Shown here one piece after another: positions 49,764 to 53,310 of a stretch of 64,000 nucleotides of DNA; the stretch's first letter is position 1; each line of letters begins with the position of its first letter. Under the pieces are notes generated by a model, which had not been told where the DNA came from, did not search any database, and saw nothing but the letters and a program-made list of their open reading frames with translations. The position numbers were made by a program, and so were the translations under genes. The stretch is from Anaerolineales bacterium (GTDB lineage Bacteria > Chloroflexota > Anaerolineae > Anaerolineales > UBA11579), in the NCBI GenBank assembly GCA_025808555.1, contig CP075526.1, positions 1,912,712 to 1,976,711 of the forward strand. The letters run 5' to 3'.

Positions 49764-50147
49764 CTATTCGATGAAGATCTCTACGTGTTGGCCGTCTTCC
49801 TCGTCTTCAATGTCCACCACTTTCCCGATGGCCCCGCTGCGGATGGCGCTCATGATGTCGGCCTGGGCCACCTCGGGCACAAAGTTGGAGGCGATGTTGA
49901 TGCCGGCGTCCACCAGCGAGAGCGGCAAACTGACGCTCACCTTGGCCTTGCCGGTGTTCATATCGGTTACGCGCACCCGCAGGTTGCGGGCTTCTTCGCC
50001 TGGGGCGGGGGTGCGGCCCATGGCGGCCGGCGGGCGACCGCCCGCGCTGCGGTTCAGCGCTTCCAGTAATTTTGCGCCGTCCTCGGGGCTGATCTTCTCA
50101 TCCCGGATCATTTGCAGGATCTTGATGCGTTCTTCGCTGCTAGCCAT
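49764..50147 (-). CDS. SHOCT-like (YvlB/LiaX N-terminal-like) domain protein
   Basis: A 127-residue soluble protein. Residues 5-30 form a helical hairpin module (ERIKILQMIRDEKISPEDGA...), the same module found in the three preceding genes. The rest (about 52-127) is an alpha+beta domain (LRVRVTDMNTGKAKVSVSLP, then VVDIEDEEDGQHVEIFIE) that resembles the C-terminal domain seen in other members of this operon. It is the last gene of a five-gene unit, three bases after the preceding stop. The biochemical function is unknown; related modules belong to envelope-stress proteins in Firmicutes. Confidence 0.78.
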   Translation of the reverse strand: MASSEERIKILQMIRDEKISPEDGAKLLEALNRSAGGRPPAAMGRTPAPGEEARNLRVRVTDMNTGKAKVSVSLPLSLVDAGINIASNFVPEVAQADIMSAIRSGAIGKVVDIEDEEDGQHVEIFIE

Positions 50148-50150
50148 GGT

Positions 50151-50786
50151 TTAGCCCTCGTTTCCGTTTGATTTCTTGTCATCCCGGTTGATCACCAGCC
50201 ATGCATCCCCGCGTTTGGCGAAGCGCTCAATAATGCTCAGCGGCAGGGGCAGGCTGATGAATACGTTGCGGTTGCCCTCTTTGCGTGAGCGCACGTTCAG
50301 CTGCATCCAATCGCCATTGCGGGCGGCCCAGCCAAGCGCCAGGGCCGCCAGGCCCACCGCGAACGGAAACCATAGACAAAAGAACCCGAAGGTCAGCCCG
50401 CTGCGCTGCAGGATCATGCCCATCCACAGGGCCGCCAACAGGGTGACGGATAGGCCGGCGATGAACAGGAAGCTGCCCATGACGCTGTTGCGCTTGATAG
50501 GCGTGAAGCTGACGAAGTCGTCCGCTTCTGCATCCTGCTGCCGGCTCTCGCCGCGGCTCTGTTGGCGGCCGCGGTTTTTGCCGCCAGCCTGCTTGAGCAG
50601 TTCCTCGGCCGCATCGTCTGCGCTAAGGGTGCCGGCTTCCACCTGCTCCAGGATGCTCATGCGAGTGGGCGGAGCCGGGCGGGGAATATCCATCAGGCCG
50701 GAGAGCATTTTCTCGGCATCCGCCGGGCTGATCTCGCCGCGCTCCAGCTTTTGCAGAATTTCCATCCGTTCGCGTGAATTAGGCAT
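50151..50786 (-). CDS. Membrane protein with two SHOCT-like modules
   Basis: A 211-residue protein. Two consecutive helical modules occupy residues 4-30 (ERMEILQKLERGEISPADAE...) and 41-66 (TRMSILEQVEAGTLSADDAA...). A Gln/Arg-rich linker follows, then two membrane helices (about 103-125 and 132-153). The C-terminal cytoplasmic domain (LNVRSRKEGNRNVFISLPLP...) resembles that of the next gene. It starts inside the end of the DUF4097 gene (eight-base overlap), so it is translationally coupled. Confidence 0.75.
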   Translation of the reverse strand: MPNSRERMEILQKLERGEISPADAEKMLSGLMDIPRPAPPTRMSILEQVEAGTLSADDAAEELLKQAGGKNRGRQQSRGESRQQDAEADDFVSFTPIKRNSVMGSFLFIAGLSVTLLAALWMGMILQRSGLTFGFFCLWFPFAVGLAALALGWAARNGDWMQLNVRSRKEGNRNVFISLPLPLSIIERFAKRGDAWLVINRDDKKSNGNEG

Positions 50787-52041
50787 CGCGGTCCTCGGGC
50801 AGGTCAGGGGCCTGCGGGGCTACCGGCGGGGTGGGCGGTGTTGGCGGCGTAGGCGGTGTTGGCGGCGTGGGCGGTGTCGGTGCAACCGGGGCAGCAGGCT
50901 GGCGGCCTTCGATCGTGTTCAGCAGCATCTCGGCCTGCGCCACGCTGATCTTGTTGTCCTGCACCATTTGCAGGATCATCATGCGTTCCTGCTCGCTGAT
51001 CGGCGCAGCTTTCTTCGGCTGCACGATCACTGGGCCGCGGGCATTGCGCACCACCACCCGGCTGTTGATGCGGCGCTGCGCTTCATCAATGCGGCGCTGG
51101 GCGCGGCGTGCAGCCCGGTCGGTGGTGTTGCGCAGGCGGTTCTGCAGATCGCGCAGTTGCTGGTTCACATTCTCCATCTGAGCATCGATCTGGGCGCTGA
51201 CCTGGTCAGTGATCTCGCCAGCCAGGCCGGCGTTGACTTCGATCATGTCCAGATCCAGGTCAAGATCAATATCCAGGTCTTCAAGGCCATCCTCGCCGCC
51301 GCGGCTGCGGAAATCCACAAGGCCGATGGCCTTCAGGTGAATTGCACGGCCGCCATCACCCAGGGTGAATTGATGGCTTTCGGCCTGGATGTGGTTTTTG
51401 CCGCTGGGGGTGTTCAGATGAATGCTGTTGCCGGCGCTTTCCAGTTGCACATCGGCATCACCCGAGTCGGATAGCTTGCAGAATACGTTGCCGCCAGCCT
51501 CCACGTGCACATCGCCGCTGTCAGAGTCCAGGCGCAGGTCGGCGTTGCCGTCTACGTTGGCGGTCACATCGCCTTCGATGTTGCGCAGCGAGAGATTGCC
51601 ATGCACCGAGCTAACCCGCAGGTCGCCATCCACATTCCGTACGGTGGTATTGCCAGAAACCTCGTCTGCGCTCAGGCTGCCCTCAATGTTGCGGGCTGTC
51701 AGATCGCCGGAGACATTGTCTACTTTGGTGTCGCCGGTGCTGCGCAGGGTCAGCGAGCCGGAGACGTTGTTGATGTATACGGTGCTCTCCAGGTTCTGGA
51801 TGTAAACGTCACGCGTCACATCCTCCACCGTCAGCGTGCTGCCGCTGGGGACGCGGATCACACAGTCATTGGTGGCGCTTAGGGTCACGCTGTCCGGCGT
51901 GCTGTTGACCTGAACATCCTGCTCGCTGCGCACATCAATGCGTACCCGCTCTTCATCCCAGCCGCGCACCTGCAGGGAGCCCTGCACGCTTTCGACGGTG
52001 ATCATCGGGGAGTCGTTGCTGCCAAGTTCCATCCGTGCCAT
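50779..52041 (-). CDS. DUF4097 beta-helix protein with C-terminal SHOCT-like module and Pro-Thr repeats
   Basis: A 420-residue protein. Residues 10-225 form a repetitive beta-solenoid of the DUF4097/adhesin-like type (repeats such as VSGDLTARNIEGSLSADEVS and VHGNLSLRNIEGDVTANVDG). An acidic stretch (EDLDIDLDLDLD), a coiled coil (about 280-330; MENVNQQLRDLQNRLRN) and one helical module (ERMMILQMVQDNKISVAQAE...) near 356-381 follow. The tail has seven Pro-Thr-Pro units. It has no signal peptide or membrane helix. YvlB and LiaX of Firmicutes combine the same two domain types and act in envelope stress, which is the closest functional hint. Confidence 0.82.
   Translation of the reverse strand: MARMELGSNDSPMITVESVQGSLQVRGWDEERVRIDVRSEQDVQVNSTPDSVTLSATNDCVIRVPSGSTLTVEDVTRDVYIQNLESTVYINNVSGSLTLRSTGDTKVDNVSGDLTARNIEGSLSADEVSGNTTVRNVDGDLRVSSVHGNLSLRNIEGDVTANVDGNADLRLDSDSGDVHVEAGGNVFCKLSDSGDADVQLESAGNSIHLNTPSGKNHIQAESHQFTLGDGGRAIHLKAIGLVDFRSRGGEDGLEDLDIDLDLDLDMIEVNAGLAGEITDQVSAQIDAQMENVNQQLRDLQNRLRNTTDRAARRAQRRIDEAQRRINSRVVVRNARGPVIVQPKKAAPISEQERMMILQMVQDNKISVAQAEMLLNTIEGRQPAAPVAPTPPTPPTPPTPPTPPTPPVAPQAPDLPEDRDA
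50831..50878. repeat. Tandem 9-bp-type repeat coding for Pro-Thr-Pro
   Basis: Short GGCGGTGTT/GGCGGCGTA-type units repeat within the 3' part of the DUF4097 gene. On the coding strand they give a run of Pro-Thr-Pro. Copy number may vary between strains. Confidence 0.75.
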
Positions 52042-52043
52042 AG

Positions 52044-52430
52044 CTAGTTTCCTTCTTCCTCTTGAATTAGGCGTAATGCCTCTTCATAGCTGATCTTGCC
52101 GCGTTCCAGGTCATCCACAATCCGTTTGCGTTCGTCCTCGCTGAGCCCGGCGAACTCATCTTCACCCGGCTCAAAGCCGAGGGCGCGGATGACTTCCATC
52201 AGGCGGTTGCGGATGGTGGGGTAGGAGAGACTGAGATCGGCCTCCATGCGGGTGATCTTGCCCTCATTGCGCACGAACAGCTCAACGAAGGCGAGTTGCT
52301 CTTCGCTGAGCTGGCTGAAGGGAGCGCTGGCGAAGCGCCCCTGCAGGGTCGTGTCGCACTCGCGGCAGCGCAAGCTGGTCAGGACCAGCTTGCCGCTGCA
52401 CACGGGGCAAGCATTCGGTGCGTGGTGCAT
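52044..52430 (-). CDS. DUF2089-family Zn-ribbon/helix-turn-helix regulator with SHOCT-like module
   Basis: A 128-residue protein. An N-terminal zinc ribbon (CPVC...CREC, about residues 8-26) precedes a DNA-binding-like domain typical of DUF2089 (LSEEQLAFVELFVRNEGKIT, then LSYPTIRNRLMEVIRALGF). The C-terminal 30 residues (ERKRIVDDLERGKISYEEAL...) are the same helical module carried by the downstream proteins. It is probably the regulator of its own operon. The start is the ATG giving MHHAPNACPVC; the longer frame overlaps the upstream gene out of phase. Confidence 0.85.
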   Translation of the reverse strand: MHHAPNACPVCSGKLVLTSLRCRECDTTLQGRFASAPFSQLSEEQLAFVELFVRNEGKITRMEADLSLSYPTIRNRLMEVIRALGFEPGEDEFAGLSEDERKRIVDDLERGKISYEEALRLIQEEEGN

Positions 52431-52437
52431 GGCCGTC

Positions 52438-52707
52438 TTAGCTGGCCACGCCGCCGTTGGCGGCCTGCATGGCGCTGCCGTGCGGCAGCTGCACCGGGGT
52501 GGTGGGGCGGGCCAGCTTGCGGGGCTTGATCCACGCACCCAGCGAGAACAGGGCGGCGGCAGCCTCGCTGCGCAGCTGGTCTACCACGCTGCTGGCGACG
52601 ACGTAGTGCTGGCCCTCGGCCAGGGTGTGACCCTGAGCCTGCTGGGCGGCGATACGTGCGGCCTCGCCGGCGGGGGTGTGACTGGTGCTATGAAAATTGC
52701 TATACAT
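52438..52707 (-). CDS. Small protein of unknown function, first gene of the DUF4097 operon
   Basis: An 89-residue, Ala-rich soluble protein (AGEAARIAAQQAQGHTLAEG, then SSVVDQLRSEAAAALFSLG) with a Pro/Gln-rich C-terminus. It is unrecognised. A perfect AGGAGG eight bases before the ATG and the strong promoter upstream show that it is expressed as the first gene of the operon. It ends seven bases before the DUF2089 start. Confidence 0.72.
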   Translation of the reverse strand: MYSNFHSTSHTPAGEAARIAAQQAQGHTLAEGQHYVVASSVVDQLRSEAAAALFSLGAWIKPRKLARPTTPVQLPHGSAMQAANGGVAS

Positions 52708-52771
52708 GATGCCTCCTAAAACCTAAAACGAACCTTATAAATCCTTATTTTTGCTTGCTCAATCATGCAGA

Positions 52772-52799
52772 AGTATACAGAATTATTTGAATTTGTCAA
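52772..52799 (-). promoter_or_regulatory. Strong promoter of the DUF2089-DUF4097 operon
   Basis: On the minus strand TTGACA (52799-52794), 16-base spacer, TATACT (52777-52772). The leader of about 58 bases is AT-rich and ends with AGGAGG. Confidence 0.82.
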
Positions 52800-52891
52800 G
52801 CATTTTGCTTAGAAATACTTAAACTGGCCTAAAGATCCTTCAAAAATGCCTTTTAACAACGTATTTTTGCGTAAGTCTAGTGCTCGAGGGA

Positions 52892-53310
52892 GCATGTAGG
52901 GGCGTACGCGCCCATGCAGCGTAGCATGCTGCGTCCGCATCCATACCCATGTGCATCCAGAGCGCAGCGTGGGATCCTTGCTACGCGTATCAATCGCACG
53001 CGCTGCATAGAAGACATGCCAGCAAAGTTCCATCGCTGGCCCGGCCTCTGCGACCGGGTGTTGGCTTATCCACCCGCTCAGGATGAACGCGGCCGTAGGG
53101 GCGGGTTTCAAACCCGCCCTCCATGCGAAAAGGTTCGCGCAGCAAACACGGCTGCCTTGACGCCAAGTCCCAATCTGCTCGCATCCGTCAAAACTGCGCT
53201 ATACCCACCGCATGAAAAAGACCATGAATCCCATACTCGCCGCCCGCTGGGCTGCCAACTCGCGCAAGCTAGCCACCTTTACCAGCCATCTAGGTCGGAG
53301 CGATAGTGCA
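52892..53310. repeat. Gene-free stretch with REP-like palindromic repeats
   Basis: No convincing gene lies between 52800 and 53493. It contains GCATG-tag-GGGCG-tacg-CGCCC-ATGC (52892-52917). It also contains GGGCGGGTTT-c-AAACCCGCCC (53099-53119, preceded by GTAG), and a CATCC...GAGCGCAGCG...GGATCCTTG string (52954-52980). These are of the short interspersed palindrome type common in environmental genomes. A similar string, GTCATTCCGAACCGAGCG, recurs after the YgfZ-like gene. From 53310 to 53490 the sequence is AT-rich with no feature I can name. Confidence 0.6.

Follow-up and report, generated by a model that had tools for sequence, protein, structure and literature searches.

Why would a DNA-binding regulator, a beta-helix protein, a two-TM protein and a 127-aa protein, encoded side by side, carry the same small helical module? 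The genes in question belong to a Chloroflexota Anaerolineales bacterium (UBA11579), contig CP075526.1, and the window, meaning the whole stretch of DNA analysed, has a length of 64,000 nucleotides. The analysis established by computation that the modules are homologous, that the genes are linked to one another and to exporters, and that operator and promoter are conserved, and it predicted the topology and folds of the proteins.

The operon and its shared module

The operon genes all lie on the minus strand, with gaps from gene to gene of 7, 2, −8 and 3 nt in operon order, in agreement with the coupled starts claimed by an earlier sequence-only reading. The four genes named in that reading are present, and they are preceded by a first gene that it left unnamed, P0005 (52438..52707), which encodes 89 aa with an LGxWIK motif and has an AGGAGG Shine-Dalgarno before its ATG. 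P0005 orthologues occupy the same position in four other species of the genus, and a fifth gave a weak match; the product is perhaps a small amphipathic protein. The DUF2089 regulator (52044..52430) has the Zn ribbon (aa 8-39), HTH (aa 41-87) and C-terminal SHOCT-like domain (aa 99-126) of its family, with PF22747, PF09862 and PF22746 all above the cut-off. Comparison of this protein with solved structures returned nothing convincing. No Pfam match to LiaI-LiaF-TM or PspC was obtained among the operon proteins, and no kinase or response regulator gene of a two-component system was found within the operon. A role in anti-phage defence was considered and dropped, PADLOC having given no convincing match.

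A Pfam profile search placed five copies of SHOCT-like_DUF2089-C (PF22746) in the four neighbouring genes, and all four proteins scored above the cut-off of 27 bits: DUF2089 with 31.2 bits (aa 99-126), the beta-helix protein with 29.6 bits (aa 352-380), the two-TM protein with 44.7 bits over two stretches, and the 127-aa protein with 39.6 bits (aa 5-32). The fifth copy, the second in the two-TM protein, alone reaches 23.6 bits, under the cut-off, and recurs in close relatives. PF22746 was matched at six places in the genome, namely the five operon copies and a copy in another DUF2089 gene that stands alone. Canonical SHOCT (PF09851) was not reported among the matches up to E=10. Module HMMs were then searched against 1025 proteins from 80 related loci and 2050 shuffled decoys. 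An HMM built from any one gene family recovered the other three; matches with E<0.1 were to operon proteins only, and the best non-operon or decoy match over all runs had E=0.19. An explanation by random helical hairpins was rejected on these runs. These results show that the modules of the four genes are homologous, and the claim of one module in five copies is thereby confirmed. In AlphaFold2 models the module is a two-helix hairpin in both the 127-aa protein (aa 4-15/21-34) and the beta-helix protein (aa 350-361/367-377).

The beta-helix protein (50779..52041) comprises a Toastrack-type beta-helix (aa 1-246; AF2 pLDDT 94-98 over most of it), a coiled coil (aa 274-334), the SHOCT-like hairpin (aa 350-377) and a Pro-rich tail. 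Its fold was matched to the Toastrack structures 4OPW (Z 12.1, rmsd 3.9, 204 aligned) and 4QRK (Z 10.3, rmsd 2.5, 137 aligned). The PF13349 (DUF4097) profile found no match in this protein or elsewhere in the genome; 18 of 51 members of the beta-helix family matched it at E<=0.01. The DUF4097 label given earlier therefore holds by predicted fold and by relatives, which make the protein Toastrack-type, and not by the PF13349 profile. A downstream Toastrack paralogue gave weak scores to LiaX and LiaG models.

The two-TM protein (50151..50786) carries two SHOCT-like copies (PF22746), TM segments at aa 102-120 and 133-151 by hydropathy, and a shortened C-terminal domain. Both termini are predicted inside from hydropathy and the positive-inside rule, and all 51 of 51 two-TM homologues are N-in. 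The 127-aa protein (49764..50147; AF2 mean pLDDT 82.6) joins the hairpin (aa 4-34, PF22746) to a ββααββ domain (aa 55-126). This C-terminal domain, for which there is no Pfam model, is common to both proteins. Because it is shared besides the module, the two-TM protein looks like a membrane-inserted paralogue of the 127-aa protein. A fold search with the domain revealed no clear relative (best Z 4.3), and a search of solved structures with the 127-aa protein gave nothing beyond weak repeated stretches of a designed protein. The C-terminal domain of the two-TM protein is degenerate in the window's clade and would therefore be dispensable there; this degeneracy was counted against the best explanation given below.

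The order DUF2089-Toastrack-TM-small is kept in 61 of 80 Anaerolineae loci, most of the others lacking one gene or being cut by contig ends, so that the four genes are conserved together. In other orders the core is present phylum-wide as DUF2089-small-Toastrack or DUF2089-Toastrack-small. DUF2089 also adjoins a small-family gene in Paraclostridium, Niallia and Embleya, and a minimal two-gene core of DUF2089 and the SHOCT/ββααββ protein occurs in Chloroflexota, Bacillota and Actinomycetota.

The module may serve as a putative contact between the operon proteins. Alternatively, the hairpin could be a membrane-targeting or general anchor, by which each protein reaches the inner membrane face alone and without module-module contact. 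An anchor was proposed for SHOCT-like domains in the available text of Ravi et al. (2024; PMC11237479), and it suits a module that is fused to unrelated domains. In the one published test (PMC3581485), a canonical SHOCT domain failed to self-associate, which likewise favours an anchor and was counted against module-module contact. However, one copy (two in some species) belongs to a protein with two TM helices of its own, for which an extra anchor seems superfluous, and on a DNA-binding protein the module would draw DNA to the membrane. We regard the anchor as rather unlikely. Covariation of modules within operons showed no general signal. Similarity within the operon exceeded that between operons for one of the six module pairs only, and the five pairs that were no more alike within than between operons were counted against the best explanation.

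Promoter and operator-like dyads

The near-consensus promoter claimed earlier was found upstream of the operon as TTGACA-N16-TATACT (52772..52799, minus strand), one such site being expected by chance in the region scanned. A similar promoter, its spacer mostly 16 bp, is present in 65 of 71 orthologous loci. An unanchored motif search gave mainly the −35 box, and the analysis was therefore anchored on it, with a column profile from 58 aligned loci. Three 13-bp dyads were seen, spaced by 21 bp or two helical turns. On the minus strand of the window, dyad 1 TTGAAGGATCTTTAGG (52828..52843; columns −42..−30) lies upstream of the −35 box, dyad 2 TTTAAGTATTTCTAAG is at 52808..52823 (columns −21..−9), and dyad 3 TTGACAAATTCAA (52787..52799) overlaps the −35 box and spacer, its centre 21 bp from that of dyad 2 in the profile. 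The z scores were 6.8 for dyad 1 (position −42) and 8.3 for dyad 2 (position −21) in 44 nonredundant loci, and 300 shuffles never exceeded 3.8. The gap-5 dyad spacing was observed 20 times against 2.9 expected (z 10.9), counts that come from related loci and so are not independent events. The right half of dyad 3, TYAA, is conserved in the spacer, with A at +12 in 91% of loci. A possible fourth site ATAAGGATTTATAAGG in the 5′ UTR (52733..52748, minus strand) is similar to dyads 1 and 2, and part of the genus has kept it. An inverted repeat at the window's −35 box, AAGCA-AAA-TGCTT, was dropped, as relatives do not keep it.

Similar dyads precede the DUF2089 gene in a distant family of Chloroflexota (loci L193-L195 and L200), where DUF2089 is the sole DNA-binding protein detected. 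A genome-wide search with one pattern, that of dyad 2, returned the window site as its single match; therefore the DUF2089 regulon is probably local. The dyads make DUF2089 the candidate protein for binding them, implying autoregulation of the operon. Repression is the most likely mode, since the third dyad lies over the −35 box and the promoter is near consensus. The opposite sign, in which DUF2089 binds dyads 1 and 2 and contacts RNA polymerase under stress, would fit the location of two of the three dyads upstream of the −35 box, the usual place of class I/II activators, and the suboptimal 16-bp spacer of most loci. On the other hand, a promoter otherwise near-perfect would hardly need activation, and the third dyad extends over the −35 box and has its second half in the spacer. 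Activation is judged unlikely.

A candidate stress circuit and its exporters

In 40 of 79 loci, which are related and so not independent events, the operon contains or adjoins genes for MFS transporters (Mef-like and others), and the gaps from TM to MFS genes are mostly 2-11 nt. DrrA-like ABC genes were found at one locus (L123) and, assigned by eye, at the Embleya locus. In Legionella a gene for an SbmA/BacA-type peptide transporter adjoins DUF2089, and in L. plantarum an aureocin A53-type bacteriocin gene does so. No exporter adjoins the window's own operon, which was counted against the best explanation.

The explanation we favour, at about an even chance, is an autoregulated, PspA-independent operon for envelope or drug stress, in which DUF2089 would be divided by titration between operator DNA and a SHOCT/Toastrack complex near the membrane. 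DUF2089 would bind the three dyads and, at the third, most likely repress its own operon. The other products would form a cytoplasmic complex close to the membrane: the Toastrack beta-helix would provide the scaffold, the 127-aa protein would act as a soluble adaptor, and its two-TM paralogue would anchor the complex in the membrane. Each of them carries the same module as the regulator. When the membrane is perturbed, the presumed signal, the complex would alter its hold on DUF2089, with SHOCT mediating either partner switching or titration; promoter occupancy would drop and the operon would be expressed, together with any exporter that it encodes. A more specific version appears possible but doubtful: a one-component membrane-stress switch in which SHOCT partner exchange shares DUF2089 between the phased operators and the Toastrack/two-TM scaffold, and which would serve mainly to control an exporter of drugs or peptides transcribed with it, having been paired with exporters independently in several phyla. 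That the module is a relic of gene duplication within the operon and serves no common function today is very improbable: the two-TM and 127-aa proteins do look like paralogues sharing two domains and the modules covary little within operons, but unrelated architectures (Zn ribbon-HTH, beta-helix) retain the module in nearly all loci and across phyla, as do most extra downstream Toastrack genes.

Relation to known systems

Overall, the operon is probably a self-regulated membrane-stress sensor. Both SHOCT-like domains and DUF2089 occur widely, and the papers found demonstrate no function for either. For both, the family offers a concrete candidate circuit that has a defined operator and promoter and a minimal core of two genes, and whose likely output is an exporter.

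The suggestion that the four-protein system is new does not stand. It was already outlined by Ravi et al. (2024; PMC11237479), and Pfam's name for PF22746 refers to the DUF2089 C-terminus. As far as the available text of that paper goes, it describes Toastrack-DUF2089-SHOCT-like neighbourhoods in which DUF2089 (Zn ribbon-HTH-SHOCT-like) and Toastrack/DUF4097 share a four-gene context, and it proposes membrane anchoring, complex assembly and membrane-to-transcription signalling; Toastrack, DUF2089 and SHOCT-like genes are likewise adjacent in the window's operon. The partners named there are LiaI-LiaF-TM, B-box or PspC, whereas here the membrane partner is a two-TM paralogue of the SHOCT+ββααββ protein. 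New here are the conserved DNA control sites of this operon type (promoter and three dyads), the ββααββ domain shared by the two-TM and 127-aa proteins, and the recurrent association with drug-type export pumps. Often the operon includes an exporter, and a triple operator, without mention in the available text, stands at its promoter.

The envelope-stress proteins LiaX/YvlB of Firmicutes are also Toastrack proteins with SHOCT-like modules, as the same available text reports; the sequence-only reading had noted related domains in them. In contrast to them, the operon here has no LiaFSR two-component system or PspC, and its regulator is DUF2089 in cis. In Bacillus leaderless-bacteriocin/ABC clusters (bawcin, thucin A; PMC10707071, PMC9484092), DUF2089 genes lie next to those for small membrane proteins and exporters, as in this operon family, but the available descriptions of those clusters mention no Toastrack gene. 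PSP/Lia systems share with this operon a predicted envelope-stress function and a cytoplasmic sub-membrane complex with a cis-encoded transcription factor. Unlike in PSP systems, no PspA/IM30 was detected in the genome (assembly 95% complete; the identical search was positive in 9 of 14 control genomes), and the operon hints at a way in which a bacterium lacking PspA may cope with envelope stress.

Operon layout and conservation of the gene set

The window's assembly consists of one contig of 2.24 Mb, and relatives of this genome are Anaerolineales of the Chloroflexota. Downstream of a TTGACA-N16-TATACT promoter (52799-52772, minus strand), five closely packed minus-strand genes were found. 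The first, P0005 (52438-52707, 89 aa), carries a strong AGGAGG ribosome site, and is followed by DUF2089 (52044-52430, 128 aa), a Toastrack-type beta-helix protein (50779-52041, 420 aa), a two-TM protein (50151-50786, 211 aa) and a 127-aa protein (49764-50147), with spacings of 7, 2, −8 and 3 nt. The near-consensus promoter and coupled starts described in the sequence-only reading were borne out. P0005 and similar leader ORFs perhaps encode an amphipathic membrane peptide; LGxWL/I..G-like motifs were seen in small ORFs of other long-leader loci (e.g. L070, L086, L115, L130, L133 and L135). A REP-like palindrome, GTAGGGGCGGGTTTCAAACCCGCCC, lies at 53095-53119, with 6 genomic matches at ≤2 mismatches and 0 for a control pattern.

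The neighbourhood was surveyed in 80 Anaerolineae loci gathered by homology to the 127-aa protein. The order DUF2089–Toastrack–TM–small was kept in 61 of the 80, showing that the four genes are conserved together, and 11 of these 61 have an extra downstream Toastrack gene; the remaining loci mostly lack the TM gene or are interrupted by contig ends. The small protein was detected in 60/121 Chloroflexota genomes. In Chloroflexota beyond Anaerolineae, DUF2089 comes first and the small and Toastrack genes follow it in either order, with the TM gene generally absent. DUF2089 also adjoins a small-family gene in Paraclostridium and Niallia (Bacillota) and in Embleya (Actinomycetota). Because this pairing extends across these groups, DUF2089 plus the SHOCT–ββααββ protein seems to be the oldest core.

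The shared module and the protein families

In a Pfam search, the SHOCT-like module (PF22746, SHOCT-like_DUF2089-C) scored above cut-off in all four proteins encoded after P0005, and across the whole genome it was found in the five operon copies and one lone DUF2089 gene. The module was excised per gene family in the 80-locus set, and a separate HMM for each family was run against 1025 proteins of these loci and 2050 shuffled decoys. The HMM of TM copy 1 detected 63 DUF2089, 82 Toastrack and 80 small proteins at E<0.001, and no non-operon protein or decoy appeared at E<0.1 in any family run. The family HMMs thus cross-detect, and the modules align better than random hairpins. All five modules proposed earlier are present here; however, the second TM-protein copy is confined to certain lineages (23 alignable copies), and only four are general.

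The C-terminus of the TM protein aligns with the C-terminal part of the 127-aa protein (hhalign probability 99.4%, E 2.5e-21), where the pattern is LRVRVTD..GK.KVSV.LPL.LV.... AlphaFold2 modeled residues 55-126 of the latter as ββααββ; no Pfam family covers this region, and a fold search of solved structures gave no clear relative (best Z 4.3, weak). Full-length relatives of the TM protein are SHOCT(s)–2TM–ββααββ and those of the small protein SHOCT–ββααββ; this shared architecture is best explained by a duplication of the small protein, with TM helices inserted into the copy that became the TM protein. The ββααββ domain of the TM protein is shortened or degenerate in the window's clade and intact in relatives. 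Positive-inside counts predicted cytoplasmic N- and C-termini in 51/51 homologues with a clear TM pair. In two Bacillota loci, the gene after the small protein (L209, 5771-6067; L211, 5734-6015) looks like a stand-alone ββααββ domain without the SHOCT module.

The beta-helix protein is arranged as beta-helix, coiled coil and SHOCT hairpin. Its model, with pLDDT 94-98 across the greater part of the beta-helix, matches both structures that Ravi et al. (2024; PMC11237479) give as Toastrack examples, 4OPW (Z 12.1) and 4QRK (Z 10.3). The earlier DUF4097 label holds for the fold and for the 18/51 orthologues that match PF13349, but a profile search with PF13349 gave no match to the window protein itself.

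Promoter and operator-like dyads

A TTGACA/TATAAT-type promoter was found in 65/71 upstream regions, mostly with a 16 bp spacer and 11-12 of 12 matches. When the regions were aligned by the −35 box only, the column profile showed three dyads, 21 bp apart and centred at −36, −15 and +6 relative to that box: T-NAA-N5-TYAA at −42, TTRA-N5-TYAA at −21, and TTGAC…TYAA at 0, which overlaps the −35 box and reaches into the spacer. TT[GA]A-Nx-T[CT]AA was enriched at gap 5 (20 observed vs 2.9, z 10.9), the runner-up among gaps 1-12 being gap 8 (z 3.4). In 44 nonredundant regions the dyad score reached z 8.3 at −21 and z 6.8 at −42, and never exceeded 3.8 in 300 dinucleotide shuffles. In the window, dyads 1 (52828-52843) and 2 (52808-52823) are 16-bp variants of the consensus and dyad 3 (52787-52799, minus strand) is a perfect TTGA-N5-TCAA. 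The dyad-2 pattern occurs once in the genome at ≤1 mismatch, which suggests a local circuit.

By eye, a distant family of Chloroflexota (L193-L195, L200) has similar dyads 5′ of its DUF2089 gene, and other families show repeats other than TTGA/TCAA. Since the repeat type varies with the DUF2089 clade, DUF2089 fits as the putative binder of the dyads. A second DUF2089 (L063, 6066-6437, genome position 872 kb; 65% identical) exists in the window's genome and relatives, where it has no Toastrack or small partner; the triple dyad was not seen upstream of it. Several relatives carry divergent DUF2089 paralogues (L048, L058-L062; 35-43% identical) adjoining proteins of ∼344-559 aa whose N-terminus carries a SHOCT-like module; the promoter repeats of these paralogues are, by eye, CCAAA-type rather than TTGA/TCAA.

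Exporter linkage, proposed mechanism and known systems

Neighbour clustering revealed two MFS families. The first stands immediately 3′ of the small gene in 27 loci; the second is placed between the TM gene and the small gene in 19 loci, with gaps that are mostly 2-11 nt. Of the 79 loci with room, 40 have at least one MFS gene no more than two genes away and in the same orientation, all these counts being non-independent as the exporter loci are mutually related. The top models for the first family were the TIGR00900 H+ antiporter and Mef macrolide efflux, both sub-cut-off. At L123 a DrrA-like ABC ATPase and permease stand within the operon in place of the MFS gene, the Embleya downstream ORF resembles a DrrA-type ATPase by eye, and in Legionella adelaidensis an SbmA/BacA-like transporter precedes DUF2089. 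The window's own operon has no exporter gene. On a Lactiplantibacillus plasmid (L213, 3727-4318), the DUF2089 gene adjoins an aureocin A53-type bacteriocin gene. DUF2089 occurs together with ABC transporters in published Bacillus bacteriocin clusters (PMC10707071, PMC9484092).

Homology, linkage, predicted topology and folds, and the operators were obtained computationally. The favoured reading is an autorepressed, PspA-independent membrane-stress operon, in which DUF2089 would be exchanged between a Toastrack/SHOCT complex, with the TM protein as its anchor, and the phased operators; here we infer DUF2089 binding, the sign of regulation, the SHOCT contacts and the signal. PspA was not found in the window's genome. 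A published self-association test of the canonical SHOCT domain was negative (PMC3581485) and module covariation within operons is weak, which argues against a simple homotypic SHOCT contact.

Ravi et al. (2024) describe DUF2089 as Zn ribbon–HTH–SHOCT-like, place Toastrack in a four-gene context and propose lia-like transduction. The link of a module-bearing DUF2089 regulator with Toastrack, part of the four-protein system earlier called new, was already described; the literature search found no other paper linking DUF2089, Toastrack and SHOCT-like domains. Set against the literature found, four features are new: the pair of 2TM/ββααββ paralogues, the Anaerolineae version with its five modules, the triple operator, and exporters as members of the operon.
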